A DNA stretch of 64,000 nt. Origin: Echinarachnius parma. Lineage: Eukaryota; Echinodermata; Echinoidea; Clypeasteroida; Echinarachniidae. The stretch's first letter is position 1. Every line of letters begins with the position of its first letter. The translations under genes and the position numbers were made by a program. Shown here one piece after another: positions 25,759-64,000 of this stretch. The stretch spans positions 58,424 to 122,423 of the forward strand of contig JBAMJV010011124.1 in the NCBI GenBank assembly GCA_037951105.1, in the 5' to 3' direction. Below the pieces are notes generated by a model. The model ran no database searches. It was given only the letters and a program-made list of their open reading frames with translations, and was not told where the DNA came from.

Positions 25759-25793
<35 letters not shown>

Positions 25794-26015
25794 GGGGGGG
25801 GCTGACCTCATTTGGCCTGTTACTATAGTTATTATTTTGTGCTTATGTATTTCTTTGTTTTAAGCCAAAAAGTGGGGGGCTGCAGCCCCCCCCCCCCCCC
25901 CCCCCCCCCCATCCCCCCTCCCGGCTCCGCGGCCCCTGAACCACGACATTTTCATGGTAATACCATAATTAATACCATATGGCACAAATCAGTGACCGAC
26001 AACCCTATGGTATTA
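25233..26015. repeat. CCATGG-type palindromic array 1
   Basis: Dozens of TACCATGGTA-like palindromes. The spacer sense flips midway: GGTAGTACCATGG before about 25400, GGTACTACCATGG after about 25440, so the array as a whole is also an inverted repeat. Broken at its right by a MITE (25732-25938), after which ATGGTAATACC resumes briefly. Open frames here read MVLPWYYH-type repeats and are not genes. Confidence 0.9.
25732..25938. mobile_element. MITE with CAGGGGCCGCGG ends inserted in array 1
   Basis: CAGGGGCCGCGG and CCGCGGCCCCTG are exact inverted ends flanked by AACCA on both sides, a possible 5 bp target duplication. The interior is dominated by long poly-G and poly-C runs around a short unique core. 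Confidence 0.8.
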
Positions 26016-31870: not shown

Positions 31871-31879
31871 TTTATAAGG

Positions 31880-34195: not shown

Positions 34196-35258
34196 CTGCT
34201 CTCAATCTCAGAGATCCATAGAGATTATCTCGGATGAGATTCCCCCCGATTCGGCGCGTCCCTCGGAGGTTAGGGAGGGCAGCGCGGCCACGGATATTCT
34301 GATCAAATACTGCCCGCAGTTAAAGGCAGATTCAGTAGCCGAGTCGGACTCCGAGGCCAGACCGATCTTCTGCCTCGACTCTGATTTTAACCCGCCCAAG
34401 AGGTCACGGGCGGTGAAACTGGATACCCCGTTCTCGAGTCGTTATCATAGCCTGGCGGGCAAACCCTCTCGCGTGCAGCACGCGCGCTCGGATATGAGGT
34501 CGGATTTCCGTTTCGGTGACTCGTACTACGAGGAATATTTCAAAACCCCCAAGGTGCCGGAGTCGGCGTTCCAGGTTGGGGACGCCCGCGCCCGGGGTTC
34601 AGCTCGTAACCCTATGCGGGCCAGGGGTTTTAAAGAGGAGGAGCGCCAGATCTCTGCTATCGATCAGGCCGCTAGAGCCTCCATGAAACTGGCGGTGTTC
34701 CAGTCCTACCTATTGACGGCCCAGCGGGAGGAGGCCCGTCTCGGGGTCTCGGCCGATGACAGCAAGACAATTTCGGATCTTCTACGTCGAATTTCCGATA
34801 TGCAATTTGAGCAAGCGTCCAGGACGGCTCTCTTGTGCTCGAAACGGCGCCGCGCCCTGGTCCTCGATCAGCTGAAGCTTGAGAGGAGGGCAGAGGAGGT
34901 TCTGAGCAGTCTCCCGCTGTCAGGTCCTGATTTGTTCGCGGGCAAATTTCAATCGACGCTCGAGAAATCTATCCTCGATTCTAGCACGGCCGACAAGACG
35001 GTGCAGAAGCTAAGCAAGCCGTCATATTCGGGCAGGAAGGACAAGGTGTCGTTCTCTAGACCCTCTCGTGCGGAGCCCCCTGCTCGGGGTTATCCCTTTC
35101 GTGAACAAGGCCATCGTCCGGCCGCTAGTTCTGCCCCAGGCTCGTTCCGACGGGGGTCTGACAGGAGAGGGGGTGGACAATTCAGAAGACCGAGAGGTCA
35201 GGCCCCCCCCCCCTCTCGTCCATCGGGGCCATTCCGGGGCTTCGGCCCACGCCTATGA
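34196..35258 (+). mobile_element. DIRS ORF1 (gag-like) region, right part
   Basis: Long GC-rich coding stretch ending in an Arg/Gly/Pro-rich tail (GGGQFRRPRGQ) next to the RT region, a usual ORF1-to-pol arrangement in DIRS elements. It overlaps the RT frame slightly. Confidence 0.65.
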
Positions 35259-35259
35259 C

Positions 35260-37317
35260 TATGTCCGGGTCAAGGGCGGACGTCCCACAGTAGTGGGAGG
35301 CAGGCTCCAGTCGTTCGCCCTGTTTTGGCCTGCCGTGACTCAAAACGAAACGGTGCTGCGCATTATTCGCAAGGGATATTGCCCTCATCTGGTGGGCAAC
35401 TTCAAAAACCTACACAGACTGAGCAGAATAACGCCGCTACCCAAGAATCCAATGAAAAGGGCGGCTCTGCTCGGAGAAATAGCGTCCCTGGTAGAGAAGC
35501 GGGCCATAGTAAGGGTACGCAGCGCCCGGAGCCTCGTTCTCTCGCCAGTGTTTCTCACACCAAAAAAGAACGGCAAGTTCCGTATGGTTCTGAATCTCAA
35601 ACGGTTAAACAAGTCCGTTTTAAATTCGACCTTCAAAATGGAGACCCTTGCTCGGGTTCTGCCAATGTTGTCGCGGGGAGGATGGGCAGCGTCGATAGAT
35701 TTGACCGACGCCTACTTCCACATCCCTATCGCCCCGGCCGCTCAGCGGCTGTTCGGGTTCGCCGTCGGGGGCGCCTACTACAAGTATCGGGCTCTCCCGT
35801 TCGGGCTAAAAACCGCCCCTCGGGTTTTTACTCGGGTAGTGCAGGAGGTGGCAAAGTTCCTCCGGGAAAAAGGCGTCCAGATTTTCGTTTATCTGGACGA
35901 TTGGTTGCTGATCGCTCGTTCTCCAGACGTCCTTCGCGCTCATCTAAGGACCACTATCGAGACAGTGTCAGGTCTCGGGTTCCTCGTGAACCACGAAAAG
36001 TCTCAGCTCGAGCCCACCCAGGTCCCGGACTATCTCGGAGTCCAAATCGACCTGAATCGTATGCTCGCGCGCCCTCTTCCGCACAGGGTGGAAAGAGTGG
36101 TGGAGAGGGCTTCGACCCTGTTAGGCACTCCCAGGGCCCCGGCAAGGGCCTGGTTGCAGCTCCTCGGTTGCTTGGCGAGCCTGGTGGACTCGGTCCCTCA
36201 ATGCAGGCGGAGGATGCGAGTTCTTCAACTGGGTCTGATGGGCCAGTACCGCCCGCAGGTGGACACTATGCTAAAGACTGTAGTGCTAACGGCGCAGATG
36301 AGGTCAGCTCTGGCCTGGTGGCTGACTCCTGGCGCGCTGGTGCAGGGGAAACGGTTCGTTCCCGCCCCCACAACGGTAACGATCTTCACGGATGCGTCCT
36401 CGACAGGCTGGGGGGCTGTGTTGGGGCGTCAGAAGGCCGGGGGCCCCTGGGCCTTAGGCGAAATAGGCCAGCACATAAATCTGCTGGAATTGAGGTCGGT
36501 CTGGAAAGCACTGCAGACCTTTCTCGGGTCCGTAGTGGGACGTTCGGTTCTGATCAAGACAGACAACCTTACGGTGGTGTCCCACATCAACAAACAGGGG
36601 GGCACGAGGTCCAGGTCTCTCTGCAGGTTGACCCTGGACCTCCTGGATTGGTGCGAGGAGAATCGGGTCCTTATATCTGCCTCGCACGTCCCGGGCAAGG
36701 ACAATTACATAGCCGATTTCCTGTCCCGGGGACGGTACCTGCCTACGGAGTGGCAGCTGAATCGGGAGGTCGCACAGAGGATTTTCCTCGTGTTCGGGCA
36801 TCCAGACGTGGACCTGTTTGCGTCGATCCTGAACAAACAGCTCCCTCGATTTTGCACGAAGTACAGGGAGCCCTTGGGGCTAGCAACGGACGCGTTCTCG
36901 ATTCACTGGGCGGGCTTCCTGGGGTATGCTTTTCCCCCGTTCGCTCTGGTGCCCCAGGTCCTGCACAAGGTGCAGCAGGAGTGGGCCACGATCTACTTGG
37001 TAGCCCCGTGGTGGCCGAAGCGCCCGTGGTTCCCATCTCTGGTGGAGCTTCTCATTCACCCACCAGTCATCCTGCCGGACAGGGTGGACCTTCTGTCTCA
37101 GCCAGGGACACGAACCTTCCACCCCCTGCGCAATCTCGGATTAACACTCTGGATCATCTCAGGGCATCCGCGGCTCAGGCAGGCCTTTCAGTCAGGGCTG
37201 CCGATATGTCGGCGAGATATCTCAGGAAATCCTCAAGGGTCACTTACGATTCTAGACTGCAGGCCTTCTTCCGATGGTGTTCTGATCAGCAGATTGATCC
37301 GTCCACAGCTCCTCTAG
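35260..37317 (+). mobile_element. DIRS reverse transcriptase and RNase H region
   Basis: RT motifs in order: FLTPKKNGKFRMVLNLKRLN, SIDLTDAYFHIPI, LPFGLKTAPRVF and VYLDDWLLIA, the last holding the catalytic Asp pair. RNase H follows with IFTDASSTGWG, LLELRSVW and VPGKDNYIADFLSRG. A downstream segment (HPDVDLFAS, APWWPKRPW) is the conserved region that follows RNase H in DIRS-type pol. Confidence 0.88.
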
Positions 37318-38180
37318 GCTCGATTGCTGATTTCCTCATGTTCCTGTTTGACAAGAAGTTGGCGATGTCGACTATTAGGGGCTATAGATCGGCCGTCTCA
37401 GCGATCCATGCCGGTTTCCAGGACGGTGACTCAGTTGGCACGTCCATGCATTTGACTAGATTGATCAAGTCATTTTCCATCGCCAGACCCGCGTTCAAGA
37501 AGTTGGGTCCGGCTTGGAGTCTCCCGCGGGTCTTGCGTGGTCTTGCGAAGGCCCCATTCGAACCGATGCACAAGGCCTCGCTGTACAACTTGACCCTTAA
37601 GACTGTATTCCTCCTCGCGGTGGCCTCGGGGAGGAGACGAAGCTTCCTCCGGGCCCTCTCGGTGGCCGCAGGCCACGTTAGGTGGGAGGTGAGAGGGGTG
37701 CGGCTTGTCCCCCATGCGCGATTCATCGCGAAGAACCAAGCCGATGGAGGCTCTGCGGGGGAGGTTTTCCTCCCCTCGCTTAAAGCCTTCTCTTCGGTCC
37801 ACCAGGACAGGGCGTGGTGCCCTGTCCGGGCCCTGAAATGGTATCTGGAGAGGACGAAGACGTTGCGCTCGTCCGATCAGCTGTTCGTGAGTGTGAAGAA
37901 CCCCCACGGCGCGGTGGCTGTGGATACAATATCCAGATGGATTGTCCAGGCCATCAGGGCGGGAGGCCCAGAGGCGGTGCTGTCCCAGGGGGTCCGGGCC
38001 CACGACACGAGAGGAGTCGCTTCATCTTGGGCTCTCTTTCAAGGGGTCTCGGTGGAGGACATCATGAAGGCAGCGTATTGGCGGAACGCCAATACGTTCA
38101 CGTCATGTTACCTAACAGACGTCGCGTGTGCTGAGGCGGGTTTCGCCTCGGCAGTGCTCTCCTGCCCGAACGGACGATAG
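37137..38180 (+). mobile_element. DIRS tyrosine recombinase region
   Basis: Core-binding part with SRVTYDSRLQAFFRWC and TIRGYRSAVSAIHAGF, then catalytic-domain landmarks: GRRRSFLRAL (first Arg), HDTRG (His-x-x-Arg) and the Tyr in FTSCYLTDV. It overlaps the end of the RT/RNase H frame, as DIRS elements commonly do. Confidence 0.85.
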
Positions 38181-41160: not shown

Positions 41161-41167
41161 GTTGACT

Positions 41168-41173
41168 TTATTT
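41168..41173 (-). terminator. PolyA signal of the creatinase gene
   Basis: AATAAA on the minus strand begins five bases after the TAG stop. If used, the 3' UTR is extremely short. Confidence 0.5.
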
Positions 41174-41177
41174 CAGT

Positions 41178-41377
41178 CTATTTCTTGATGATGTTGTATT
41201 CCGGACCGTACGGATAGTGTGTAATATTTCTCGCGCCATCATCGGTGAGGACGAGGATGTTGTGTTCCCTGTAGCCTCCTGCCCCAGGCTCTCCTTCGGG
41301 TACGGTGATCATGGGTTCCATGGAAACCACCATATTGGGCTCGAGCACGGTCTCGATGTCCTCTCGGATCTCCAAGG
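41178..41377 (-). CDS. Creatinase exon 6 (C-terminus)
   Basis: Acceptor aaccaag; completes codon 405 and runs to TAG. Encodes LEIREDIETVLEPNMVVSME (Glu425), then GAGGYREHNIL and YPYGPEYNIIKK, ending like the bacterial enzyme (FPYGPEKNIIRK). Phase 1 entry. Confidence 0.92.
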
Positions 41378-44300
41378 CTTGGTTATTTAAAAAAAAGGAA
41401 GCAGACGTACATAGAATAGTAATTTGAGAATACAATTAAAGACATACAGAAAAGGTCGCGTTCAATTCAATTGATAATAATCCAATTCATAGTTTTGTAT
41501 TACGATGCACAGTTCTTAAAACGGTTGTTTTATTGTGTGTATTGATTTAAGCATATAACTTGGCCTCTAGATTTTGATATTTTTTGGGGTCAAAACTTTG
41601 AAGGGGTAGTATAATTTTGGTAAGACTGAGCTTTAGTAACCAAAGCCTGCAAAAAAAACATTACAGACTAATAGTTATAACTCCACCATGCTCAAAATGT
41701 ATAGAAAATGAACAACTAAGTGAAAAGGCTGTTATCATTCAAAATGAGCCATTAAAACACAAAAGAGCGCTTTCTAGAAAAGCATTAGTTTCAACAATAT
41801 TCCCTACAAAATTATGCATGTGATGTTTTGTTGAAAAAATCAGTAAATAGAGAGCATCAACAACTATTTAAAAACCTCTTTCGAATACTTCGGAAAAAGT
41901 GTAAGCATTTGGGTCGTTAATCATCTAATACATGAGGGTCCCAGATTTATTCCGATCGGGTATGTTTATTGATATTTCAGCCGTTTCCGAACCGATTTTG
42001 ATCAAAATAAAGTTTTGTTCTGTGTATGGTTTTTCAAATTTTACACTCACTTTTTCATTATCTAACAACACAATTATTTTGTGCAGCGCCCTCTATGCCA
42101 AACTGAACTACCCAATTAACACAGTTGCCATTTGTAAATGCATCAACAAAGATAAACTCCAATGAGATGGGACCATGAAACACAATCCTGTTTCATTTGT
42201 GAGTGCGAACGAGTTGCCCCTGTTTCTTAGATATTTAAATGAAAATTAAACAGTATCTGTCTCACCTGCTTCCCGACCATAGTAGTGGCTCAGCACCCCG
42301 AATGAGTGTCCGTAACCGAAGCTTCTGTACTGGAGCAAATCGTATTCCCGATACAACTCGTTCAGTTCCCGCGCAATGTCGCAGCATCGCACCCCCGGTT
42401 TGATGAGCGCCATCCCGCGGCGGTGCACCTCGCAGTTCTTCTCCCACAAGTCCAAGTGGCGGTCGGAGGTCACGTGATCGAAGAAGAGAGTGCGCTCTAG
42501 AGCGGTGTAGTACCTGCATGTGGTGGATGATAATGTTAAAAAGGGAGTTACATGCAGGTTTTTTGTTTGTCAACAGGCACGGATTAGATGGATTAGAGCA
42601 TAGATATTGTCAGGTATTTATTTCCTTTCGGGTATATCACCGATAATTATAATAATTACCCCCCAAATAAGTGTAAAATGTCCCCTGGCATTACTGCCCA
42701 CTGGAGGCTGCCACTACGTTGCATACGGACTCAAAATAAATGGGTAACGTAACCACTGACATAGCAGTGAAGGCAAAATTATCAGTTAAGTATTCCGCTC
42801 TTGCTGAGCCCGTATATGCAACGTCATTTAAACGTGGTCTGTTGCCAAACATGATAGACATGGCAGCCTCCAGTCCAGTGGCAGTAAAAGTAGTGGAGAG
42901 TGTCCTAAAGGGATCGATTATTTCACTTATGAGTAAACCAAAGATCGACGAGACGCGACATGATGTATGCTATGCTCTTTTATATCCTTCATCAATGAAA
43001 TCCTGTTCAGTGATTAGTCTACATTGCGTCATGTGACCACCAAACATATCATTGCAATGATGTTGATGATGTTAAAAACAAAATGCCCATGAAGAAAATA
43101 TGCTATACCGTGACGTCATTCATGGTATTAAACACAAATATATACCATGCACTGAGTGCCTCTAGTTGAAATTATGGATTTTGAGGTGTCAGGTAAAGCA
43201 CTATTTTCTGAGGGGCGCAGCCCCGAAGAAAATAGTTACCGAGGAATTTATCATTTCACTAGTAGATCGAAATAGTGCATGATATATTTGTTTTATATCC
43301 TTACAATAATACAAATGTTTACCATGTCACTTTAAGCCGATGATTCAGACCGAAGTCACATAATGCCTTCAATGCACAAGTACACACGGCCGTACACACA
43401 TTGACATTGCATGCACAGGCGTAAAAGTTCGCGACGCGACAAACTTGTTAAATCGTCAAAATTCACATTAGTGAGAGAGCAGTAGGCCTACTCCTTGAAT
43501 ATTGACAGTCCGTATATTGTGTTTTCACTATCTGTAGAACCGATCAATTCCTCTTAATCCTCGTGATTAATCAATCAATGTGAACCGATCTGAGGCTGCC
43601 ATTTTGATAGTTTGTTTAATGACAAAATATGGCATTGAATTCACTAGTGGCTCGAAAGTAGTGCTTTTTCTGTCACCGAGGAATCCATAATGTTACTAGT
43701 GGCTCGAAATAGCGCATGATATATTTCTTTTATATCCTTCGCATAATTATAATCGTCCCGCAAATAACTGATTTAAATTAAATTAAAGTATAATATTATA
43801 AAGCTGCGTTTCAATTAGAGCGAATTTCCGCCGCGAACATTCGTACGGACAAAATCAATGTTATTTATATATTATTCATATATATTATTCATATTACGTG
43901 GCGAATATTCGCAAGCGAATTTGTTAAATCGCACCTCAGAGCGATTTTTTCAATAATTTGCTGCGAAAAAAAAGTTCGCCGAAGAAATTCGCTCTAATGG
44001 AAACGCAGCTTAAAGGAAAACAAATCATTGATCATGGAACCATCACTGTACTGACTATAGTCGCATTCACACGATGAAAGCCAATTCTTAAGAGTTGCAA
44101 TTCTTAAGAATTGCAACTCTTAGGAATTGCAAAATGTGTGTTCAAACGATGCCAATTCTCGAGAGTTGCAATTCTTAAGAATTAAAACCGGAAGTAGTGC
44201 GCGCGCCTTTCTCATTTGAGGTCACGCGCGCTCACTTGACTTGTTTTCACACCGGAAGCATATCTCGGTCATGAGGTCAACTCAAACCACGAGTCTCGAA

Positions 44301-47300
44301 GCTGATTGTGTTCAGACCAGGGGGGTCATACTGCGCGCTAATCTTGGAAACTTTTATGGACTGGCTAACATGGAATTCTGGGATACGTTTAGTCTAGGAT
44401 CGAGACCCTCGATCGCATGCTGAACATAGCGCGACCAACGAGAGAGGTCTGCGTAACATCAGTGATCGCTGCTCACGAGGCCTCGGCTGGCAGCCATCAC
44501 TGCTGTTGTGCAGATCTCTCTCGTTGGCGGCTATCTATTATGGGTGGTGGGATTATTGTTAGCATGCGATCGAGGGTCTTAGATTACAGACTACAAAATA
44601 CCCAGCATTCCATGTTAGCCAGTCCATGAAGTTTCCCTAACCGGCCATGTTTGCTGCGTGTTAAGGCTATGGGAAAATTAGCGCGCAGTGCGTAGATTCT
44701 CTTCTAGTTATTTATATACTAGCCGTATTCAGACGATGAAAGCCAAGTTCTTAAGAATTGCAATTCTTAAGAATTGCAATTCTTAAGAACTTCAAAATGT
44801 GTGTTCAAACGATGCCAATTCTCGAGAGTTGCAATTCTTAAGAATTAAAACCGGAAGTAGCATGCGCGTCTTTCTCATTTGAGGTCACGCGCGCTCACTT
44901 GACTTGTTTTCACACCGGAAGCATATCTCGGTCATGAGGTCAACCCAAACCACGAGTCTCGAAGCTGATTGTGTTCAGACGGTAAAAAAAGTAGACTGCG
45001 CGCAGTCGCGCGCTTATCGCGCGCTCATTCTGCGCAAAATCTTACAAGTATCTTGTGGTTATCTTGTGGTTTGCAAACCACAAGATAACCACAAGATAAC
45101 CACGAGGTTGCGCATTTTTTGCAGTGTGCGCAATCTCGTGGTTTGGAAACCACAAGATAACCACGAGTTTTGCGTGTTCAAACGAGCGCAAACCACAAGA
45201 TATTCTTAAGAATTGCAAACCACAAGATAACCACAAGATAACCACGAGATTTGCTTTTATCGTCTGAATGCGGCTACTACTTCTATGGTTCAGACCTCAG
45301 ACGGTTACAAAAAATAGACTGCGCGCAGTCGCGCGCTCATCGCGCGCTCATTCTGCGAAAAATCTTACAAGTATCTTGTGGTTATCTACGTGGTTTGGAA
45401 ACCACAAGATAACCACGAGTTTTGCGTGTTCAAACGAGCGCTAACCACAAGATAACCACAAGATACCTCTAAGATTGCAAACCATGAGATAACCACAAGA
45501 TTGGCTTTTACCGTGTGAATGCAGCTATAAACAGGTTGGTTTGTTTATTCATAATTCTATGATTTGGAAATCACAAGATAACAACGAGTTTTGCGTGTCC
45601 AAACGAGCAAAAATCACAAGCTACTTACAAGATATCTTTAAGATTGCACTATTGTAAGTTCAATTCAAGCATACAATATATTATTTCTTTTATTTACTGA
45701 TTTCATTTTCTAATACTTCGTAGGTTATTCTTATAATATCAAGAACACAAACAATAAAGAGAAAGACCCAACATACCCTGCAATCATTGGGAACATGTTG
45801 AGACTGAGGATGTCTCCTTTCTGGACCTTCCGTGAAGTCCCAGGATTGTGCCCTCCATCGGTGTTGAGACCCGACGAGAACCAGGTCCATGCTGTGGTCG
45901 AGGAGAAATTAGTATGGTTAGACATCGCAATACACATATAAGCTTACATCCACAAAGAAGCTGTTCGTGTAAACCATGGTTTAAACAGTTTGTGGAATAA
46001 AACAATGAAGTGCCGCTTGGAGACAAATAAAAGGGAAACCACATTTGCTGATGCATTTACAATGAAATGGTCGTAAGTTCTTGCTAACCAGCGTCACATA
46101 AATACAGTTTTTCATATCTGAGAACTTAATAATACCTTTAAAGGGAGTATCTGAGATGTACAAAGCTTCTACAAAGTTAAAGTAGATATAGAAGGGTTAA
46201 GATGACACTCACGTGAAATATTGGATAAAATTACGCTGCAATTCGGATTTTACAAGTGAAAAACAACCATGAAAAGATGGAGAAAAAAATGTTTCTTTAC
46301 TGGACTACTTTTCAGCCACTAAATTTGTTTAGGTGATATATCATGATAATACAACAAAGTTTTTTTTTGTTGCAAGAAAGTTCGCAAACAGTTTTCATTG
46401 TCGCAAACAGTTTTTCTTGTCGCAAAGAAATTTTGAACATGTTCAAAATTTCTTTGCGAATTTATTTTTCCGCAAACAGTTGCAAGCGTTTGCAAAACAG
46501 TCGTAAGCCTTTGCAAACGGTTGTATGACGGTGTCACTGAAGTTCTTTTTGATTCGCCAATGATAGCGACCACATTACCATATGGTTCCTATATAAAATC
46601 GACCCATTGAGCGGCGAAAGGTTCGTCAGAAAAGTTGGCGAATCCAAAATTACTGTGATGTTAGAAGCTTCCGAATGTCAATTATTTTGTAAATTCCCAA
46701 CTTACTACAATATTAATTTATTATCAGAAAAGTGTTTAGCGTCGTATCTAGGAGAAATTGCACCCTGTTCAAACATAGGGTACACTGTCATTGCACTCGT
46801 ACTTGGTACGCAAAATCAACAATAAAATGAATCAGGTAGACCTTGCCATTAAACCAAATAATAAAGAGTATTTTCGTCCTAATCCTTACAGGTATATAAT
46901 CAGCTAAATACACGTTTAGGTGTTGAAATGTTAAAAAAGAGAGTTTCAAGTTGGAAATATTCGTAAAAACCGAGGAAAGCCTAAAACTGAGTTTATATTA
47001 TGTTTACTAGTCCATCATCCAAATCAATTGTCAGGCTGGAGTAAACTGATGTTACAAAAGCACGTTTGACAGACCGTGGCGAATGGAATCATACATGTAT
47101 ACTAGTCCATCATCCAAATCAATTGTCAGACTGGAGTAAACTGATGTTACAAAAGCACGTTTGACAGACCGTGGCGAATGGAATCATACATCTATAGTTG
47201 CATTGTATACCGTACATGGACTAGGGAACCGTAGTGTTATGGGTTGTTTATTTGTTCAAATCAGCCTGTTCATGCCATACTTGTATTGTATTTGATTTGA

Positions 47301-50300
47301 ATTTATTTCCATATTTGACAAATAATTTTTGAACAAGTAAATATACAAACAAACAATATATTCGTAAACGGAATACAATTTAAAAAAAACACAGAAGACT
47401 AATAATACAATCAATATTACATGATCAACAATTTGTTTGTAATTAACATGACATTTACGTGAAATATAGGGGAACCAAAAAGAAGCAAAGCTTGTAAAAA
47501 CATTTGTTTCCCTGGGGTAATTGTGTCTAATCAATATTGAAAAAGAAAAAAAAAAAAAAAAAACGATACAAGATCAAGTTAAAGAAGAGAAGGTGCCATG
47601 CCAAATAACAATATATTTTTAGACCACTATAGACAAGAATATTACAATCGATTCAACCGAATAAAACGAATACAAAAGTGGAAGCTTACTTATAAAGAGC
47701 AGTATAAATATGACATATAATGTGTTTATGTATTTAATGCAAATTAGTAAAAACTAACTTAACAATAATTATTTCGAGTACAAAATCAATGATAATGATT
47801 TTAAATTTTTAATTTAACGTTTAAATACAAAGAGATAGGGGCTTGTAGTCATTCTGTTGGTAGATCATTCCAACATTTTGGACCAGAATTTTGAGCAAAA
47901 TAGTGTACGTGTTCGTGGTAAATGGAAAGAACCACTCTGCCGAGTGGGGTAAATATGAAAATAATTATTCTTTTTGAATATCGTCATAAAACTTTAAAGG
48001 GATCTAGTAACTTTGTTGGTATGTGCAAAAAGTGATGAATTGTTGATACAATGTATAGTGCTGTTAACTAATATGTCCACAGGGTATTGTGTGAAAATTT
48101 CAAGTCAAATGGACATGGCATGGCCAAGTAATGAGCGAAAATGCAAAGTGATATTGGGTGATATTCACTAACTCACTGCATTCACTTTGTACAGGGATGA
48201 AAAACTCGCCCGGAGTTTTTCTTATCTGAATACTTTGATCGTACATATCTTTGTAACGAAAGGGAATTTGAAAAACCGAAACCTGTTCCATGATTTTATT
48301 GTTAATACGAATACAACAAGGTATGAGGGAACCGCTAGAATTAAAATGTTATTTTGAGGAATTGGACAATGTTACTAAGTCCCTTTAAGGTAGTTCATTA
48401 TTGGACAATTTATACATAAATATCCCAATATTATAAACAAAAACAAAAATCAGTTAGTTTCAATACTTTTGAATAAAATAATTATATTTTGTGAGCATAA
48501 AAACTTTTTTTTTTATTAACAATTCTAATAGCTCGTTTTTGTATTTTAACTGATTTATCAAGTAATAATAATGTACTATTGCCCCATGCTAAAATTCCAT
48601 AATACATGTAAGATAATATTAATGTTCCAAAAAGAGTAGGTAAAACAGTAGTTGGAAAACAAAACTCCTTAATTTATATACAATTCCAGTATTTCTAGAT
48701 ATCAAATTACATAAATGATTAATTATGTGATTTCCAAGATAAATCACTATCAATATATAAGCCTAGGAACTCGTTGTAAATGAATATCGTTTATTAAAAT
48801 ATGTCCAGGGAGGGAATTTATCGTGTTACTAAAAACCATATTATTGTGTTTTAACAATATTTAATGACAATTTATTAAAATGAATCCATTTCTGTACCAA
48901 TTCCATTTCATAATTAACTATATCTAACAAGGCCTCTGCATCACGATGTGAATTTTAAAAAAAGGTTATAATCGTCCGCAAAAAGTGTAAAAGATAGTAC
49001 TTGAGAAGCATTAAGAAAGTCATTCATGTATATACTAAAAAGAAGAGGGTCAAGGAGTGACCCCTGGGGGTAACTTGCTGATTGGTCTATGACAGCCATT
49101 TGGTCTACTAGAAAATTGTGAATTCAAGGTCGTATGATTTTAATTAGTGATTATAATTAGGGTCAGTGGTGTGAATTAGGGTTAGGGTTAGGTTTTTGGT
49201 TAGGGATCGTGTTTGGAGTTGGGGAAATTGAAGTTCAAGGCATCAGGTAGTAGACCAAATGAGTTGTAGACCAACTGAGTGTAGACCAAGCGAACATAAA
49301 CCCCCTGGGGTACTCCATAAGAAACAAATCTGTGGCTTGACTCATGGCAATTCACAACAACACATTGTTTTCTATTTTCTAAATAATTCCTAAGCCAGTC
49401 CAACGCATGCCCACGTATTCCATAATGATTTAACTTATATAATAATATATCATGATATATCCAACTGTATGTAATTGATCATCAATAGCATTAGCGATCT
49501 TATTAATAAATGAAAGCAACGCATGGGTTGTGAAGTATTTTTCTCTAAAACCAAATGTGTGAACTGGATATAATTTTACAATCATTTAAAAATGTAAGCG
49601 TACGTGTATAAGCCAACCTTTCTAAAATTTTCGAGAGGGACGATAACAAACAAATTAGCCTCTTTTGAGGATGTAATACTTTAATTATTACTTTCCAAGT
49701 ATTTTTTAGCATCCATCCTTTATATTTTAAATTGATTTCCACAATAACTTGTCTTTACAGCCTCTAAAACCTTAGTAAGTACAATGTGAATTTTAGTTTA
49801 TTTACTCATATTACTAAGAGTAGGTTTTTCATATTTATAATATCATTTTTTTTTTCTTATTAATATATTTTACTAAAGAATGACTTATCCAAGGGTGTCT
49901 AGGTATTTTATGATAATGTTTACGGGACGGTTTATTATTATATTCTTATTACCCGGGGTCTCAATTTCAATAAAGATTGTTTCAATATTTTCAATCATAT
50001 ACTTTATTTCTTTTAGTACCTTATATTTAAGATTATTTGTAACATAAAATCTAACTCCACCTCGCCGTTTGGTCGTTCTATTGTTAGTTATAAGAGAAAA
50101 ATCTATCAATAAAAAAGATAATTAGGGACATCAACCACAATCAACCACGTTTCCAATAATCCAATTATAGCCGATTCAAACTTTAATTCATTTATAAGTC
50201 CAGAAAACTTATCAGAATTCTTACTATATAAGACTTCTGATATTAAGGTGCATCAATAACAATTCATCACTAACATTTAAACTCGAATTAAAAATTACCT

Positions 50301-51968
50301 GCTGTTCCGTAAAATAAGCAGAATTAGTATTATTTACAAAAGGGTCATTCGTATCACAATCAAAGCGGCAAATCTAGGTCGATTACCTCGAGAGGATAGA
50401 GTACAATATCATTCATTGACCATTAACAAAAAACCTATTATGAGTATTAATGCATGAATATGTCTTCTATTCGGGTGGATCAACTTGACGTCAAAGTGAG
50501 GACTAAAGAAAGAATTATCAATTAACAAGTTGTCACAAAAATATATAAGAAAACATGGCAACTTGAGAAGAATAAAACGAAACAAACTAAAAGGAAACAA
50601 ATATGATAACATTCAGAAAAGCAGACGATTAATGGTTTTCCGGCCTCCGACATATGTGTGAGTCAGAAAGAAAAAAGCGAAGTAAATTTTAAAATAAGTA
50701 AGTCGAAGTAATAGAAAAGTAAAGTATCAAATAATCACAATATACGAAGCATATAAGTCATAGCATAATTTGTCAAATATCAAATACTAAATCAAATTTA
50801 AATTTCGTAAACAGAGTGCATTGCTTGGTAGCCTTATATCAAATAATACAATATATGATATGTTGCATAAATATATAATACTGTTAATGATCATAACCCA
50901 CAAAAGCTAAACAAGGATTTATACTATCCAACCCGTCAGAAAGGTCTGGAACTCAACTGTGATCGATCACATTATCACTCTTATTTTTAAATATTTAAAA
51001 TGTTTAAATGTTAGTGTCATTGCATTGAATATAATTTCCATTACAAATGATACATAAATTGTAATTTAGTTCAGTTTGGGGCATACGCTTGAGAATGGGG
51101 CATACTAATAGTCGTCGATCACCGGGGGTGGGGGGGGGGGGATATGTCCTCTCCCATATTCTGAGGCGTGGGAAGGCCTGCATTATTATCCCCCCCCCCC
51201 CTCAACAAAAAATTAAAATTAAAACATAAAAATAAATAAATACAAAAATAAATGAATAAATACAAAAATTAAATAAATACATGAATACAAAAATTTAAAA
51301 AAAAATAAAAAATCTAAGTATTTGGTATTCAGCAATATAAAATATCATATAAAAGATGCATAATTATAGGTTGCAGCTCATTAATGAGGTTTATATAAAC
51401 TAAAAATCAGCAAGATCTAGTCATGTATTGTGAGAGTGCAGATTATTATGAAATCTCCCACAGGCATTCCCCTCTCGCACGGTTATAGCATGCAGCTAGT
51501 GAAGAACCCTGCGACAATTGCGAAGAACCCTGGTCTCGGCCATGAAAATGTTTAAAATTCTCGGTCTCGCGGCTTCGAAAATTTTTGTCTCGGCCTCAAA
51601 AAATTGTGACCGGTCCTGGCCTCGGACTCGAAAAGTTGTGACCGGTCCTGGTCTTGGCCTCGAAAATTGTAAAAGTACTCGGCCTCCGCTTCAAGAATTG
51701 TCTACGGACACCCTCCCCCCCCCCGCCCCCCCCCCTTATAGGATTCTCAAGAAATGTCGAGAATTTGTGACCTGTCTTGGTCTCGGGTTTAAAAATGTTG
51801 AAGGTACTAATTGGTCTAGGCTTCCCCCGCTTACAGAAATTTATCTGACGAAATAACCCCCGCCCCCCCCCCCCCCCCCCCCCCTTGAATCAATCCTGGG
51901 TACGCCATTGTAGCTAGTACAAGTAGCTAGTTCGGATGTCAAATAATTTAAATTGATGTAATTAAATA

Positions 51969-52026
<58 letters not shown>

Positions 52027-55000
52027 GATTGATTGATTGATTGTTAGATTGAATGATTAATGTAAAGATTGACTCGATTCAATCACCATAATTCTAAATT
52101 ATTTAATTAAATCATGTTATTATTTTTAATCTCACTAGTCACTCACTCACTCACTTTCACATGTATGCACATACTACGACGCCGTTAACAGCCACGCGCA
52201 GACTAAGATCGCGGCAACTACTTGCGCGGAGTGAATGGTCCGCTGCGTAGAGCAGTTTCCAGCTGCATGCAAGGCAACACACTCAAAGCACGACAATATT
52301 GCAAATGGTATGGTTGTACATTTACTAAATGACAGAACTGCATATTATCGTCTCAGATTACTCTTATGCACATACATACCATAAACTTAATGATTGACAT
52401 TGATTTGATAAGGGGTTTCGGCATTTTAGTCGACATTTTTAACCCTGTATCTATGTCTAGTCTTAGTAACAAGCGCTTGCAATTGTAAAAATTTCGATTA
52501 AACGCTCACGTCACGTTTTGGTAAACGCGACTATTTGTGTTTTACCGGCGTGGAAAACAACGAATGGTAGGCCCTACACTTCGCAAATTAGAGTCACCTG
52601 TTTTACGAAATAGCGCAAAACGTGAACGTGATACGTGATACGTTTATATACGTGACCGTGCGTTGCAAGCCGAACCTAGGGTAGCATGTTTACCATACCG
52701 TGTTCACTTATTCGACCTGTGAGCAATTTCGATACAATCTTCGAAGTCGATATTACCCACTGACCATACTGGCCTTCGGTTTCTTGAATCTGATACTGGA
52801 CACTGGGTGCAACTATATGTGTGTGGAACACTTTCCATGATATATTTTATATATATAGCCGATCGAGCTCTTTTCCTCTCCGTCCCATAGGCGTACCCAG
52901 GGGGGGGGGGGTGGGGGGGGAGTTCAACCCCCCCCCCCCCCGCCTTTGACCCCAAAATGGCTGTTTTGGGGGGTTTGAACCCCCCCCCCCCCCCCCCCTC
53001 CTCCCCTTTTCAAATTGTAGCCGGATCTCGAGACCACTCTTAAAGGGAGAGATCCACTTTTGCAAGCCAAAATTCAAAAGTTGCGAGGTTATTGTCTTAT
53101 ATGAAAGGAAATGTCATTTAATAGCATGCCTGACAAAATTAGGGCTTGAAATCTCTTTTTCGTGGAGTTATAGACCTAAAACTGAATAAACTGAGGGACG
53201 TCGGTTAATTAGGTACATACGTATTTTCGGCCGGTGAGTAAGTTTGTACATAGATTATACGGAGTGCCAGATCGGTATGCATGACCCCTACGTGACCCGC
53301 GCTAGCTACGTGACTCGCGCATAAGTACTAATGTGTGAGCGTTTACCAAGCAAAATACCCAAACATCGCTTAAACTGACTACATGTAATTATATATTCTT
53401 TCTTTTTGAGATCTTTTTCCGTGACATACGCTAACAAATGTCGGCTTCAAAATACCTTTACGAGAATTAGTACTATATTGTTGTAATATTATGCTAAATC
53501 AGTTGAACTCCTTTATTGACCGATATATAGTTTAAATGGAGGGACGCATTCGTTTTTCATTCGAATAAACAAAATTAGAGGGCTGTTCGCTCTGATTTTT
53601 TTTTGCGTGTTACATTGATCCCCATCCGTCAACTGAAAGCTGTTCAGACGTTTTGTAAAAGTGGACCTGTCCCTTTAAGGTTTCTCGAGACCACTTTTAA
53701 GCGGTCTCGACCATCATAAACCTGGTCTCGGCCTCTAAAATTTGCGAAGAAACCCGGTCGCGGGCTCGAAAATGTTGACATTTCTTCTCGGTCTCGGCTT
53801 CAAAAATTGCAATGGTCTTGGTCTCGGTCTCGAAAATTATAAGGTACTTGGTCTCGGTCTACGGACACCCCCCCCCCCCCCCCCCCCCCCCCCCACTGAG
53901 AGGTTCTCAGTCAATGACCTTGGTGTTGGTCTCGACAAATTGTCAGTTACATGGTCTCGGTCTCGTCAATTTTGAAGGTACCTTGTCTCGGCTTCAAAAA
54001 TTATATTAATGATTTACCTAGATCATCAGACTACTATAATTTTCGACTCTTTGCTGATGACTCTAATATCTTTCATTCTTTTTTACCTAATCAAACAGAT
54101 ATTAACCTATTGGAAATAACTGATAACCTAATACACATTGATCAGTGGTGTGATGCGAATAAGATTACTATTAATATAAAGAAAACTAATTTCATGATTG
54201 TTAAGCCAAAGAGAAAAGAGTGTCGTATGGTTGGAGTTGTAAAAATTCAGAACGAGTTATTGAATGAAGTACAAGTATCTCTTTTTGTTGGAATATATAT
54301 TGATAGGCATTTGAGTTGGAATGAACATATAAATAATTTATGCTCTGTACTTCGTAGGAAAGTTGGAATTTTGTATAGACTACGACACTTTGTTCCGAAA
54401 CGAGTCCTTGTATTATTATATTATTCCTTTGTTCAGTCACATTTATCTTACGGCCTTGAAGTCTGGGGAAGTGCACCTTTGATGTTAATGAATAAGATAT
54501 TGATATTACACAAAATGGCTTTGAGAGCAATTACTTTTAATAATAGAATGGCATCATCTCCATTGTTTTATTAATTAGGTATATGGGATGTGTATAAACT
54601 GTATAAGTTTTGGGTAACAATTTTTATTTTTGAGTGTTCTCATGAACACTTACCACACTCAGTGTTTGAATATTATACCTTTTTTGAAAACTCTTATAGT
54701 ACAAGACAAAAGGATGGAAATATTTTGGTTAAGCCTAGGGTGAGAACAGAGCATGGAAAAACTTCAATCTCGTTTCAGGGTTCAGATATTTGGAATAGTA
54801 TGCCTTTAGAGATACGGAGACTTGATAGACTCAACCTTATTGAGATACATGTAAAAAAGTATGTATTAAGTCAATATGTATTGTAGTGTTTTGCGAATTG
54901 CTACCAAACATAAAGCAATTTGTATTCTCTTAATAAGATTTTACATGTTTTATATAAACTTATAGTTTAGTTGTTATTAGTGTGTCCACTATTGTAAATA

Positions 55001-56829
55001 CTTAGTGTAGAATGTTATTTAATCTTGCCTTAGTCAAATGTAAGCATATCGTCTATTCGTGTACATAGGGTCCTACGCCCCACTAGCAAAAGTTGCTATT
55101 TCTGTAGGGTCCTTTTACCAATTTGTTTGTCTGTCAACATTTCTTATATTCATGTATGATTGTTATATTGTTATCTTATTGGTAATAAAGTTATTCATTC
55201 ATTCATTCATACGTGCGATACTTACTGTCTTTCAGCTCCGCATGCGGGAACGACCTGGCGATTTCCCTCACCATCGCTTCCGTTGCGTAGAGAGCCACTT
55301 CATATTCTCCAGCACCCTCTACCGTAGCCTCGACCCCGGCCTCCCCACCGAGATCGCAGACCCTTGCTCCTTCCTCGATCAGGGCGATCTCCTCGTCCGA
55401 CTTGATCAACCTCCGCAGCATCAACGGAGTCCCGACATCAACTACGTCCTTGCCTTCAACGGCGATGTCCAGCTTGGTCCTGTTTTCCAGGGTCACGTGG
55501 TCGAACTCGCAACCGACTTTTCCCTGGGTCCCTGCAAGCGTTCGCTTAACGGCAAGCCAGAAGTTGTCCCGGTGCCAGTCCGTGTAGATGATGTTGTCTC
55601 CAGTGGCGGTTCGGCGCCAGGGCTGTCCCCCATCTATACCGGCAGAGATGCTCACCACCTTGTCCTGCGTAAGTATGACAGGCGGTTTGTGTAAAAAAAA
55701 AATTGACATGGTTAGACGTTGTAAGATTTGTAAAAATGTATAATAGCTGTAAATTAATAACAATACAGGACAATTCGATGTTGTTTTAACTGTTATAAGG
55801 AAGCAATTGATAACAATGTTGAAATATTGAAGGAACACATGTCTTGGTTTAGATGATTTACTTGTAAACAGCTAGTGTTTTTCATACCTGTGTCACGACG
55901 AGTCCATAGGGCCGCCCGAAGGAACAGTACAGGAAGTCGGAGAAGTAGTTGATGTTGTGCATGGACGTGAACACGGCGCCACCAATGCCATTCTCCTGCA
56001 TAAAGCCGCGGACTATCGCTATCCGTCGCTCCATTTCCTTCTGGGAGAATGTTGGTACCACCTAGAATGATCGAGATGCAGAATGAGATAACGAAGCAAC
56101 TGAGTAATGAGTATTGATGTAGCTCTGATCAGGCAACGTTCCTTGCCCCTTCCTACCGTCAAAATATGACGCGTTTACTGCGGATAAATATTTGTTGAAA
56201 TGTCTGTGCAGCCTTTCAACTCTTACACGTCAAAGCACAGCCCCCGCCCCCTCCATACATAATTCTTTAAAAAGCAAAACTCGGGGACAAAGTATGTGAA
56301 GTTTGGGCAAAAACATGTTATTTTAGAGCAAAAACGAGCATAATCCGTCGAATATAAACATACAATTTGGACCAAATTGTATAATTTTTGGGTAAAACTG
56401 TAATTCAGGGAAAATTTGGCAAGTTCATCATGTCATCATTTTTTGGGCAAAATCAGTTACTTGTCTGACTGCTAAAAGTAAACACAATAGTTTGTCAGGT
56501 AAACGAGTAGGATGATATTCCTGGAAATGACGTCAGCCCCTCTGGTAAACATGTGCCCTTTTTAATAAAGCACATTGCAACTAACTTTATACCTTTTCCC
56601 CATTCGGCATGGTGTACAGTTTGGGCATCTCATTGTCAGATTCCAGAATCGTTATAGACGAATACGACCGAATACCAGCCGGGACCCCTCCACAATTTCG
56701 TTGAACCGGAGGACACGCACCAGAGGTTGGCCTAACTGCAGCCTCCAATCCTGTCGCTGAGCCACCTGTCAGCAAGCGACCTTGACCACGAACTCCGGAG
56801 AGAAGTCTTCCAATGATGGTGCGGTGCAT
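41178..56829 (-). CDS. Creatinase (creatine amidinohydrolase), probably mitochondrial, 6 coding exons
   Basis: Exons 56829-56593, 56061-55888, 55664-55226, 45891-45777, 42513-42266 and 41377-41178 join in phase into 470 residues. Creatinase hydrolyses creatine to sarcosine and urea. From residue 67 the chain follows bacterial creatinase (403 residues) almost without gaps, including SDFLYCSFGRPY, DGGQPWRRT, MIAGYYTALERTLF and GYGHSFG. Residues known as catalytic in the Pseudomonas enzyme are all present: Phe127 and Arg129, His298, Glu328, His391, Arg402 and Glu425. Metal-ligand residues of other M24 peptidases are not kept, as in creatinase. Residues 1-58 are Arg-rich and nearly free of acidic residues, ending IRSYSS, a mitochondrial-type cleavage site. 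The introns and leader argue against bacterial contamination. Prolidase or methionine aminopeptidase are much poorer fits. Confidence 0.93.
42266..42513 (-). CDS. Creatinase exon 5 (catalytic core)
   Basis: Acceptor catgcag, donor gtgaga. Encodes YYTALERTLFFDHV (Glu328), IKPGVRCCDIARELNEL and LQYRSFGYGHSFG...YYGREA (His391, Arg402). Confidence 0.93.
42600..43798. repeat. Creatinase intron 5: repeated segments
   Basis: Two related segments (about 43138-43290 and 43640-43745) share ACCGAGGAAT, CGAAATAG and GCATGATATATTT, one with a GAGGGGCGCAGCCCCGAAG hairpin word. A 98-codon open frame at 42740-43036 has no family resemblance. Confidence 0.45.
43799..44013. mobile_element. MITE with AAGCTGCGTTTC termini
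   Basis: AAGCTGCGTTTCAATTAGAG and CTCTAATGGAAACGCAGCTT are inverted ends; arms continue into GCGAATTTC / GAAATTCGC. Confidence 0.85.
44056..45530. mobile_element. Nested MITE complex with micro-palindromes
   Basis: Outer ends TATAGTCGCATTCACACGAT and GTGTGAATGCAGCTATA. Inside, a close relative (44721-45277) has ends TAGCCGTATTCAGACGAT and ATCGTCTGAATGCGGCTA, and a separate foldback spans 44357-44628. Sub-terminal DNA is packed with AATTCTTAAGAATT-type and CCACAAGATAACCACAAG-type short repeats. Both levels carry GCGCGCAGTCGCGCGC. Confidence 0.8.
44357..44628. mobile_element. Foldback inside the outer MITE
   Basis: GGACTGGCTAACATGGAATT and AATGCTGGGT-type left arm pairs with CCATGTTAGCCAGTCC at the right. 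Inner arms GATCGAGACCCTCGATCGCATGC / GCATGCGATCGAGGGTC and AACGAGAGAG / CTCTCTCGTT also pair. Confidence 0.78.
45777..45891 (-). CDS. Creatinase exon 4
   Basis: Acceptor cgaccacag, donor gtatgt. Encodes TWTWFSSGLNTDGGHNP (His298) and KGDILSLNMFPMIAG, phase 1 in and phase 2 out. Confidence 0.93.
46421..46458. repeat. Perfect 38 bp palindrome within a GCAAACAGT-rich stretch
   Basis: CGCAAAGAAATTTTGAAC followed by AT and the exact reverse complement. Around it (46375-46520) GCAAACAGTTT-like words recur in both senses. Lies in the large creatinase intron. Confidence 0.8.
47005..47195. repeat. Direct tandem duplication, about 96 bp unit
   Basis: ACTAGTCCATCATCCAAATC ... GCGAATGGAATCATACAT occurs twice in succession with one or two differences. 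Confidence 0.87.
47994..48388. mobile_element. MITE family A, copy 7, inside the LINE
   Basis: TTTAAAGGGATCTAGTAACTTTG to GTTACTAAGTCCCTTTAA, very like copy 6 at 17279 and copy 4 at 8115. It is younger than the LINE it interrupts. Confidence 0.88.
49066..49307. mobile_element. Short element inserted in the LINE, flanked by CCCCTGGGG
   Basis: The LINE motif coding VPQG is duplicated at both borders (ACCCCTGGGGG and CCCCCTGGGGT), indicating insertion with target duplication of about 8-9 bp. Inside are inverted TGGTCTAC / GTAGACCA words and a short TTAGGGTTAGGGTTAGG run. Confidence 0.65.
50331..51517. other. Creatinase intron 3, middle part
   Basis: AT-rich with (AAAT)n-like sequence at 51200-51310, poly-G/poly-C runs near 51125-51140 and 51190-51200, and a worn end of the foldback family of 2938-3650 near 50940-50985. 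No exon seen. Confidence 0.45.
51518..51905. repeat. GGTCTCG-type degenerate tandem array, left block
   Basis: Units of roughly 30-35 bp with the pattern GGTCTCGGCCTCGAAAAATTGT, much degenerated, broken by poly-C runs at 51715-51734 and 51862-51884. Confidence 0.65.
51968..52052. repeat. (ATTG)n microsatellite
   Basis: TTGATTGATTGATTGATTG repeated nearly perfectly for about 80 bp. Confidence 0.95.
52053..53037. other. Creatinase intron 3, further stretch
   Basis: Unique-looking sequence to about 52880, then poly-G/poly-C runs (52901-52920, 52927-52941, 52981-53000) next to AGGCGTACCCAGG. GGGTACGCC also occurs at 51898, so these may be worn MITE ends. Confidence 0.4.
53038..53680. mobile_element. 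MITE with CTTAAAGGGA termini, 640 bp
   Basis: CTTAAAGGGAGAGATCCACTTTTG and TAAAAGTGGACCTGTCCCTTTAAG are inverted repeats. It shares the TTAAAGGGA core end with family A but not its interior. The insertion lies between blocks of the GGTCTCG array. Confidence 0.82.
53681..54002. repeat. GGTCTCG-type degenerate tandem array, right block
   Basis: Same unit as 51518-51905 (TCGGTCTCGAAAATTATAAG, TTGGTCTCGACAAATTGTCA), with a poly-C run at 53870-53893. Ends exactly where the LINE copy begins. Confidence 0.68.
54003..55207 (+). mobile_element. 5'-truncated LINE copy (CR1/Jockey-type RT C-terminus)
   Basis: Starts inside RT: YINDLPRSSDYYNFRLFADD (catalytic ADD), KTNFMIVKPK, SHLSYGLEVWGSA, then after a stop at 54574 a C-terminal part with GSDIWNSMPLEIR up to 54886. 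A 3' tail follows with a GGGTCC/GGACCC-type hairpin and ends in (ATTC)n at 55190-55209. Open over most of the RT stretch, so younger than the minus-strand copy. The (ATTC)n tail abuts creatinase exon 3. Confidence 0.82.
55226..55664 (-). CDS. Creatinase exon 3
   Basis: Acceptor cttacgcag, donor gtaagt; 146 codons plus one base. Encodes DKVVSISAGIDGGQPWRRT, IIYTDWHRDNFWLAVKRTL, LRRLIKSDEEIALIEEGARV and EYEVALYATEAMVREIA. Its donor lies only 17 bp from the LINE tail. Confidence 0.93.
55888..56061 (-). CDS. Creatinase exon 2
   Basis: Acceptor cattctag, donor gtatga; 58 codons, phase 0 to 0. Encodes VVPTFSQKEMERR and FTSMHNINYFSDFLYCSFGR, which holds Phe127 and Arg129 (Phe62 and Arg64 of the bacterial enzyme, reaching into the neighbouring subunit's active site). 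Confidence 0.93.
56062..56592. other. Creatinase intron 1
   Basis: No repeat or exon recognised; some GGGCAAAA words recur in 56310-56450. Confidence 0.5.
56593..56829 (-). CDS. Creatinase exon 1 with mitochondrial-type presequence
   Basis: 79 codons from ATG 56829 to donor gtataa. Arg at positions 3, 8, 14, 18, 33, 44 and 54, a single acidic residue before 60, and IRSYSS as a likely processing site. EMPKLYTMPNGEK then aligns with the N-terminus of bacterial creatinase. The upstream AG at 56870 (cttgtccag) may mark a 5' UTR intron. Confidence 0.85.
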
Positions 56830-61061: not shown

Positions 61062-64000
61062 AATTCAATTCAAAACTTTATTTCAGACACAACTGCACAT
61101 GGCAGAGGTCCATAGAACAAACAAGTTACATGACATGGATATATATAAGTATACAGACATGAGTATAATAAAGACATATTTTATAAAAATATATTAAACA
61201 AAATAAACCGAACTAGACTATGTATATAAACTACAATCTAAACTCTAACAAACACAATATTCTAACTTATAACTGTATGAAAAACATACTTATTACAATC
61301 TACTGTGTACCATTAACCACATGCATGTATAAGGTTAAAGTACTTAAAACTATAAAGTGCATACCACTATATGATATGACTATCCCGGCTCATCAAGGCA
61401 ATGTACTAACATGTACTATAATAACAAGCAACAAGAATAAACTATACTGCACAAAAGTCCATGGGACATGCACAAAGTTATCAATCTCCATGAGCCAGCA
61501 GGCTACTAAGCCAAAATTTCCAAAGGCCTGATGTGTACCTAAGGCAACTATATGAGGGATTCACTAAAACATTAATAATACCATTCTCAGAGACATCCAC
61601 TCTGTGCATGAATTTGAACATGAGATTCCTTAATACAGCTTGACAGGCAGGGACATTTATTTCGGCAAACATTTGGCTAGCACTGAAGTATCTTGGTACC
61701 CTCAGAAGCATTCTCATGGCATCATTATAGGCTACAGTAAGCCTGTGCAGACTGCTCTTCTTAAAATTACACCACAGATGTGCAGTGTACAAAGGTGTAC
61801 AGTAAGCCCTAAATAATGCCACCTTCACATCCGGGGAACACATATGAAATTTCCTAACTAGCATATTCCCTTGAGCATATAATTTACGACACTGTCGACT
61901 AATATCTTTATCATCACTGAAATCATCAGTGAAGAAATGACCAAGATATCTGACCTCTGTACAAACATTGAGTTTAGCTCCGCATAAATAAAAATCAGGG
62001 AATACCAATCTACGGTGATCCTTACATCTAATAATCATAACATGACTCTTTTTTGCATTATATTTAACATCATTATCATCTCCATAATCAGAACAAATCT
62101 TGAGCAGACTCTGCAACCCAGCAGTGGAAGGGCTGATAACAACAAGATCATCGGCATACATTAAATGATTAACTACTGTACTGCCAACTACACAACCCGT
62201 TTTACAAGCATTCAGATTGTCGGATAGACCATCCATGTACAAATTAAATAGAAAGGGTGAAAGAATACCACCTTGTCTAACTCCATTACTAACATGGAAT
62301 GGTTCAGAGACACTACTTCCCCATCTAACCATCATAGATTGATGGGCATACCAAAATACAAGTATCCTAATCAAGTACTTAGGAATACCTCTATCAGCCA
62401 TTTTCTTAAACAACTTTTCATGGTTGATTCGATCAAATGCTTTGGAAGCATCAAGAAAACACAAAAACAAGGAAGAGTTCCTGCTGTGATAACTTGCAAT
62501 AATTTCCTTCAGGGCAAATATACACATGTCAGTACCATGTTTAGCTTTAAAACCAAACTGGTTATCTTTAGTAAGAATATACAACTCCAATCTACTAAGC
62601 AAAATCTTTTCGAGCACCTTGGACAGGACACTTGCCAATGCTATGGGTCTATAATTGTCTTTACTAGCAATTCGACCTGCTTTATCTTTAATGACTGGCA
62701 CCAAAACAACAGATATCATACTATCGGGTAAAATACCATGAACCAAAAATCCAGTAATGCACATTGAAAGCAATTGCATAAGCTTCAAACTTGCAAACTT
62801 TAAATGTTCAGCTGTAATAGTATCAAGACCACAAGACTTATTGTCATCCAATTGCCTAATAGCTTCTTGAACCTCCTCTGGGGAGACAATCATATTTACA
62901 TCAAAATCAACATCAGTAACATCTTGCACTGTTCCATGCACACAATTGAACAAATCTTTATAGTGACTACGCCACAATTCACTAATATTTACATCACCTG
63001 AGACACCTTCAACATTTGTCGGAAGAGGTGTTTTACTACTATTAACACATTTAATTTCCTTCCAAAAATCAAAATAACTGTTACCCTGCAATTTACGAGC
63101 AACAGAGTCTGCCCGCATAGCATTCTCATTATTCTTTATAAAACGTAGAGCATATTTAAACCGCGTATTGGCCCTCTTCTTTAACTCAAACAAAGGGCCC
63201 TGTTTATTTTTACCAGCTTCCACCCATAGTAGGTGAGCCTCACGAGCTGCAGAGTGGAGCTCTGCCACATGCTCATTCCAACCAGGTCTAGTATTATGCA
63301 CTCTGTTCTTGCATTGATAAAGAGAGTTGCTTGCATCACGTAAGCATTTCACAATTTTATCATATGTACTACATAAATCATTAGCATGATCATTATTAAT
63401 ACATTTGGAATCTCTACATAAAAATGCGCCATCTGCATGAACATTAATATCATTAAGCAACAAGTCAGTATCACGACAATAATTATTTCTACTATTCTTA
63501 TCAATCTTAGCCCAATCTAGTCTGCCTTTAATAAAGGCATTAGACTCACCTGATTCACATAACCCAGGCAAGTCATCAACAGCAATTGACAAATTAACAG
63601 GAATATGATCAGTTGTAGCAAATCTATACATAATTTCCATCTTCTCTATAGAAGCATTTGCATCTGCTGTACAAATACAATGGTCTAACCATGATGTGGT
63701 ATGCCATGCCTCACTAACGTAAGTATAACTATCTGCAGGTAAGGAATGCAGACTTGACAACACAAAATTATTATCACTACAAAAATGTCTCAAGTGATTA
63801 GCAAACAGGGAATTATTGTCCGAAATGTCTGCATTCCAATCACCAACCAAATAAACACTGGTCGTATCCAACTCAGAGACGAATGCAGCAATAAATGCTA
63901 TTTTCTCAAGATAATCACTTTCATTTTCAAGACATTCATAAGGAGAGTAAATATTAATAATAACAAACTTCTTATCCTCATACTTAATTTCTATACCAAC
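61062..64000 (-). mobile_element. LINE with open endonuclease-RT frame, continuing past the right edge
   Basis: The minus-strand frame is open from 64000 to the stop at 61481 (839 codons). Apurinic-type endonuclease: VIINIYSPYE, GDWNADISD, SWLDHCIC and TTDHIPV. RT: DNYRPIALASVLSKVLEK, FLDASKAFDRI (motif A), NGVRQGGILSPFLFNLYMDG (motif B), MYADDLVV (motif C), then RCKDHRRLVF, VRYLGHFF and LFRAYCTPLYTAHLW. The 3' tail ends near 61062 in GAAATAAAGTTTTGAATTG. Jockey-superfamily-like (CR1/L2 side), clade not assigned. No disabling change is seen in the visible part, so it is young. Confidence 0.9.

Follow-up and report, generated by a model that had tools for sequence, protein, structure and literature searches.

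By sequence comparison, a six-exon gene in the genome of the echinoid Echinarachnius parma encodes a true member of the creatinase family and not a prolidase. It lies in a stretch of 64,000 nucleotides (the window; contig JBAMJV010011124.1 of assembly GCA_037951105.1, positions 58,424 to 122,423), and it is copy A of a family of four loci that we consider, on balance, likely to be genuine creatinases (creatine amidinohydrolase, EC 3.5.3.3). Judged from the conserved residues, at least two of the copies, A and B, most likely serve to hydrolyze creatine, yielding sarcosine and urea; the mitochondrion is the probable site, and we favor this reading with some reserve. According to the textbook view, animals lose creatine by spontaneous cyclisation to creatinine, and creatinase is best known from bacteria.

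The gene model proposed in a first-pass annotation of the window, with six exons and 470 residues, holds. The six joined exons form one open reading frame (ORF) of 1413 nt, encoding 470 residues and closed by one terminal stop, and all five introns (531, 223, 9334, 3263 and 888 bases) have GT-AG borders (Table 1). From residue 67 on, as had also been noted there, the product follows bacterial creatinase, residues 67–469 corresponding to residues 1–401 of the Pseudomonas putida enzyme (structure 1chm). A TAGACTGAAATAAAG stretch downstream of copy A is also found after its counterpart on the other haplotype and after copy B.

The domains recognized by Pfam in copy A are Creatinase_N and Peptidase_M24, an architecture common to M24 peptidases too, and the domain names alone are therefore not decisive. 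In a phmmer search of solved structures copy A matched 1chm with 578.7 bits (E 7.6e-173), whereas the best-scoring prolidase reached 70.1 bits. A search of plasmid sequences gave 570 matching records, of which 60, at even steps down the ranking, were listed: in this list, records H1–H44 cover 99–100% of the query at 56–67% identity, H45–H55 have at most 27.4% identity over 40–96% of the query, and H56–H60 are short pieces, matching 9% of the query at 71% identity. Furthermore, a tree rooted with five rows of the Xaa-Pro peptidase family (L131–L135), whose branches are mostly very long, separates the creatinases, the six animal sequences among them, from the outgroup as a single clade (support 100/99). 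The structure scores, the identity gap between the plasmid records and the rooted tree together rule out a mislabelled peptidase, and the family identity asserted in the first-pass annotation is borne out, copy A falling with the creatinases and not with prolidase. Chance resemblance can be dismissed in view of the score and of the recurrence of this gene structure at three further loci. Copy A also remains below the curated cut-offs of the NCBIfam models DoeA (59.3 against 575 bits), DddP (28.9 against 600) and PepQ (75.7 against 630); this is weak evidence, since no creatinase model was among the NCBIfam matches either of copy A or of the bacterial creatinase L043, which likewise falls far short of the cut-offs (84.9 against 575 and 82.1 against 630 bits). 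The missing creatinase model may explain the vague labels found in genome annotations.

The active site points in the same direction. Residues F127, R129, H298, E328, H391, R402 and E425 of copy A align with F62, R64, H232, E262, H324, R335 and E358 of the P. putida enzyme, which we take to be its substrate-binding and catalytic residues, and all seven correspondences had been correctly named from the window alone. They are identical in the six animal sequences and in all 80 bacterial sequences compared, apart from one X at E262 (79 of 80); these bacterial loci are the best 80 of 594 relatives, and because their similarity to copy A was the basis of selection, the counts of conservation are biased; in-frame stops in four of their translations (L039, L077, L105 and L116) entered the trees as gaps. 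Positions 249, 260 and 376 are N, A and H in 6/6 animal and 80/80 bacterial sequences. Whereas three outgroup rows (L132–L134) carry the metal ligands D, D, H, E, E, the animal and bacterial creatinases have N, A, H, E, H, and the D-D-H-E-E site of Xaa-Pro peptidases is accordingly absent from copy A. Since its metal ligands are replaced as in bacterial creatinases, copy A would be of the metal-free type.

A survey of the genome (1.2 Gb in 14790 contigs) revealed four creatinase loci: A, in the window and on the other haplotype (contig C12217); B and C, tail to tail and about 7 kb apart on C6535 (loci L119–L122); and D, on C4964 and its haplotype C5985. All copies have intact ORFs and splice sites, a counterpart of exon 1 is present in the second haplotype of A and in B, C and D, and each of the five introns keeps its codon position and phase throughout, except for intron 2 of D, which is two codons further on. 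When A and D are aligned, 73% of exon bases and 2% of non-exon bases can still be matched. In the core of the protein the ratio of nonsynonymous to synonymous divergence (dN/dS, Nei-Gojobori) is 0.105–0.187 in 15 of 15 pairs; by the same method, synonymous divergence (dS) is 0.041 and 0.046 in the allele pairs, 0.17 between A and B, 0.76 between A and C, 1.1 between A and D, and 1.4–1.5 between C and D. From the shared introns and the low dN/dS it follows that the introns are older than the A/D duplication and that selection has maintained the protein. Gene conversion of exon 5 of C was considered and found unconvincing (A–C synonymous difference 0.36 there, 0.42–0.62 in the other exons).

Copy A is a host nuclear gene, to judge by its introns, its host neighbors and its presence on both haplotypes. 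This agrees with the host-gene status argued for in the first-pass annotation, to which the four loci and the collinear haplotype can now be added: contig C12217 follows the window between 38.9 and 64.0 kb, the pieces longer than 250 bases being 93–99% identical; the gaps are small, and a single short piece is out of order. On the same contig as copy A, two ORFs with MENTAL domains are probably exons of a STARD3/STARD3NL-like gene, judging from their domain matches, and STARD3-like genes are animal genes. A contaminant or symbiont source of the sequence could be thought of, given that two papers report creatinase genes from sponge microbiomes (PMC6742649, PMC11812461) and a third reports a potential creatinase domain in a sponge microbiome (PMC7848895), while a further paper describes archaeal symbionts lacking a canonical creatinase (PMC6790972). 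Contamination is, nevertheless, extremely improbable, being contradicted by the five spliceosomal introns, the four loci, the collinearity of the haplotypes over some 25 kb and the STARD3-like exons.

Each copy has 67–94 residues ahead of the bacterial-like MPK/MPR start, an extension whose end lies close to RSYSS, RSYAS or RSFMS in every case. In composition, the first 40 residues contain 4–7 K+R and 0–1 D+E, with a hydrophobic moment of 0.17–0.35. Basic, acid-poor N-termini are typical of mitochondrial presequences, and the family is probably mitochondrial, which would place sarcosine beside sarcosine dehydrogenase, an enzyme sited in mitochondria. In the mechanism that we propose, the basic extension would direct the protein to the mitochondrion, where a metal-free pita-bread dimer would employ H298 as acid/base, with E328 and E425 gripping the guanidinium group and R129 of the partner subunit and R402 gripping the carboxylate, roles that we presume for these residues; creatine would thus be hydrolyzed to sarcosine and urea, and the sarcosine would be handed to the mitochondrial sarcosine dehydrogenase.

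Several observations weigh against creatine hydrolysis in mitochondria by a metal-free enzyme. Neither ligand pattern is present in L131 and L135 of the outgroup, so that ligand loss is not unique to creatinases; mitochondrial targeting is judged by composition alone, the hydrophobic moment of D is low (0.17) and its assigned start is the first in-frame ATG. Furthermore, copy A departs at six of the 146 sites that are at least 97% conserved in bacteria (Q223S, A231G, I308L, L341I, D377N and F392Y), A231G and Q223S being absent from B, C and D. V235G also flanks its catalytic histidine and, together with A231G, puts two glycines beside it, which is why creatine hydrolysis by copy A is graded only as likely. 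The departures are far more numerous in C (20 of the 146 sites) and D (19), and include H331N and Y332L in C, both at sites invariant in 80/80 bacteria, and Y258F and S247V in D. These changes, and those near the catalytic histidine of A, favor the chief rival reading, in which the animal family now uses a different guanidino substrate, such as glycocyamine or another phosphagen-related compound, and only some copies still act on creatine. We regard this shift as rather unlikely, because the seven substrate and catalytic residues are unaltered in every copy, C included, and B, by sequence the most canonical copy, departs at only three of the 146 sites. The altered conserved sites of A could also be taken as signs of a decayed or silent pseudogene, which is very unlikely considering that both haplotypes and their splice sites are intact and that the allele pair differs by 11.0 synonymous against 4.0 nonsynonymous changes. 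Creatine hydrolysis stays the preferred function. A broader scenario is speculative and, taken as a whole, improbable: some animals would degrade creatine in mitochondria through horizontally acquired, duplicated creatinases, linking the phosphagen pool to sarcosine/glycine one-carbon metabolism and urea, while C and D would act on other phosphagen guanidines.

As regards origin, DNA relatives were sought in the prokaryote and plasmid collections, and rows were thinned at 85% identity, leaving 39 of 87 for the unrooted tree, with seven more added for the rooted one. The animal sequences group together as a single clade (100/100) in the careful unrooted tree, their common branch measuring 0.41, and the best bacterial identity to the animal copies is 63–69%. 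The family would have entered the animal lineage, or an ancestor, before the introns and the duplications, most simply by an old bacterial transfer; such a transfer is the simplest reading given the distribution of the enzyme, since the best-studied animals have, to our knowledge, no creatinase. That absence also speaks against vertical inheritance of an ancient eukaryotic or animal gene lost in most lineages, which would be compatible with either function and which we hold to be doubtful. Points in favor of vertical descent are the long animal branch and the best bacterial identity; no donor lineage and no close bacterial relative were found among the tree rows, and a tree constraining the 35 bacterial rows to one clade is not rejected (p-AU, approximately unbiased test, 0.456). 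The first-pass annotation had offered either an old transfer or an ancient animal gene: its conclusion of a true host gene stands, on the evidence of introns and haplotypes, and the p-AU value is compatible with both origins. Two candidate donors were discarded: L095/L105, which stand beside the animals in a quick tree (support 83) but not in the careful unrooted one, and Maritalea, which the rooted tree places with the animals (99/93) on a branch of 1.26 among other long branches. Vertical descent would also gain from one discussion sentence in a paper asserting multiple creatine kinase and “creatinase” copies in the genome of the nematode Haemonchus contortus (PMC9406637); the passage gives no sequence evidence and describes these enzymes as phosphorylating and dephosphorylating creatine, and this “creatinase” may be an M24 label. 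ORFs neighboring the bacterial genes were scanned at four loci (L041, L043, L059 and L095): the creatinase of L043 is adjoined by an FAD oxidoreductase and a BCCT transporter, and no sarcosine-type oxidase is present among the ORFs given for L041, L059 and L095.

Automated “creatinase-like” labels seem to occur in some marine invertebrate annotations. In searches of an open-access library, no paper characterizing an animal creatinase was found. Mentions of “creatinase” in animals often refer to the M24 peptidase family; a fish “creatinase” entry is Xaa-Pro aminopeptidase 2 (PMC3141667), a moth gene with a “Creatinase/Prolidase N-terminal domain” is aminopeptidase P (PMC3161092), and generic M24 labels or domain names appear in papers on Daphnia (PMC9321109) and a nematode (PMC4404410). 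A transcript screen of Yarrowia on carcasses detected no creatinase (PMC5436106). Among the plasmid matches listed, many of H1–H44 lie on Klebsiella and Acinetobacter plasmids, and their labels read “M24 family metallopeptidase” (26), “aminopeptidase P family protein” (13), creatinase (2) and creatininase (2), with one record unlabelled.

The other features of the window are given in Table 1. The 973-residue ORF has a weak integrase SAM-like match, below the cut-off (E 9.3e-4), and resembles a tyrosine-recombinase (DIRS-like) retroelement. An Rfam scan of the whole window gave no match at gathering thresholds.

Table 1. Copy A of the creatinase family and other features of the window (window positions; residue numbers are those of copy A, with P. 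putida equivalents in brackets; A231G and V235G are in P. putida numbering).
Feature	Position	Strand	Remarks
Copy A exon 1	56593..56829	-	Start codon, N-terminal extension (residues 1-66), first core residues to 79; end phase 0
Copy A exon 2	55888..56061	-	Residues 80-137, including F127 and R129 (F62, R64); end phase 0
Copy A exon 3	55226..55664	-	Residues 138-283, remaining Creatinase_N domain and start of M24 domain; end phase 1
Copy A exon 4	45777..45891	-	Catalytic H298 (H232) and adjoining copy A changes A231G and V235G; end phase 2
Copy A exon 5	42266..42513	-	E328, H391 and R402 (E262, H324, R335); end phase 1
Copy A exon 6	41178..41377	-	E425 (E358), C-terminus, stop codon TAG
Possible polyadenylation signal AATAAA	41167..41172	-	Few bases past the copy A stop codon (minus strand 41166-41180 read)
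MENTAL-domain ORFs	10454-10789 and 11524-12069	-	E 6.5e-14 and 4.8e-17
Tandem repeats	25407-25825 and 30994-31885		Long ORFs of YHGTTMVLP-type repeats in several frames
Long ORFs (366 and 973 residues)	34158-38180	+	GC-rich stretch (56-60%)
Weaker reverse transcriptase fragment	53918-54571	+	In third intron of the creatinase gene; E 2.5e-4, below cut-off
839-residue ORF with reverse transcriptase domain	61484-64000	-	E 4.8e-37

If the proposed function is true, a conserved, selected and probably mitochondrial creatinase family would mean controlled recycling or disposal of creatine nitrogen in some animals, and it might stand as a clear example of an animal lineage in which a nitrogen enzyme of bacterial type has become fixed. 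The function is directly testable with purified protein. The case is also a warning that labels such as “M24 family metallopeptidase” conceal real creatinases and that “creatinase” labels can conceal peptidases.

Compared with known systems, copy A is closest to the P. putida creatinase 1chm, with which its core aligns end to end at 64% identity and shares both the catalytic and substrate residues and the loss of metal ligands; it differs from it in the 66-residue N-terminal extension, the five introns, the membership of a nuclear multi-copy family and the changes Q223S, A231G, V235G and D377N. The creatine amidinohydrolases 7yto (copy A residues 71–469, 564 bits) and 1kp0 (residues 75–469, 531.7 bits) match with somewhat lower scores than 1chm, and copy A is likewise set apart from them by its extension, its introns and its nuclear multi-copy family. 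With Xaa-Pro dipeptidase and aminopeptidase P, in contrast, it has the Creatinase_N and Peptidase_M24 architecture in common, whereas identity is no higher than 27.4% in the listed plasmid records and the D-D-H-E-E ligands, kept in three of the five outgroup rows, are absent from copy A.

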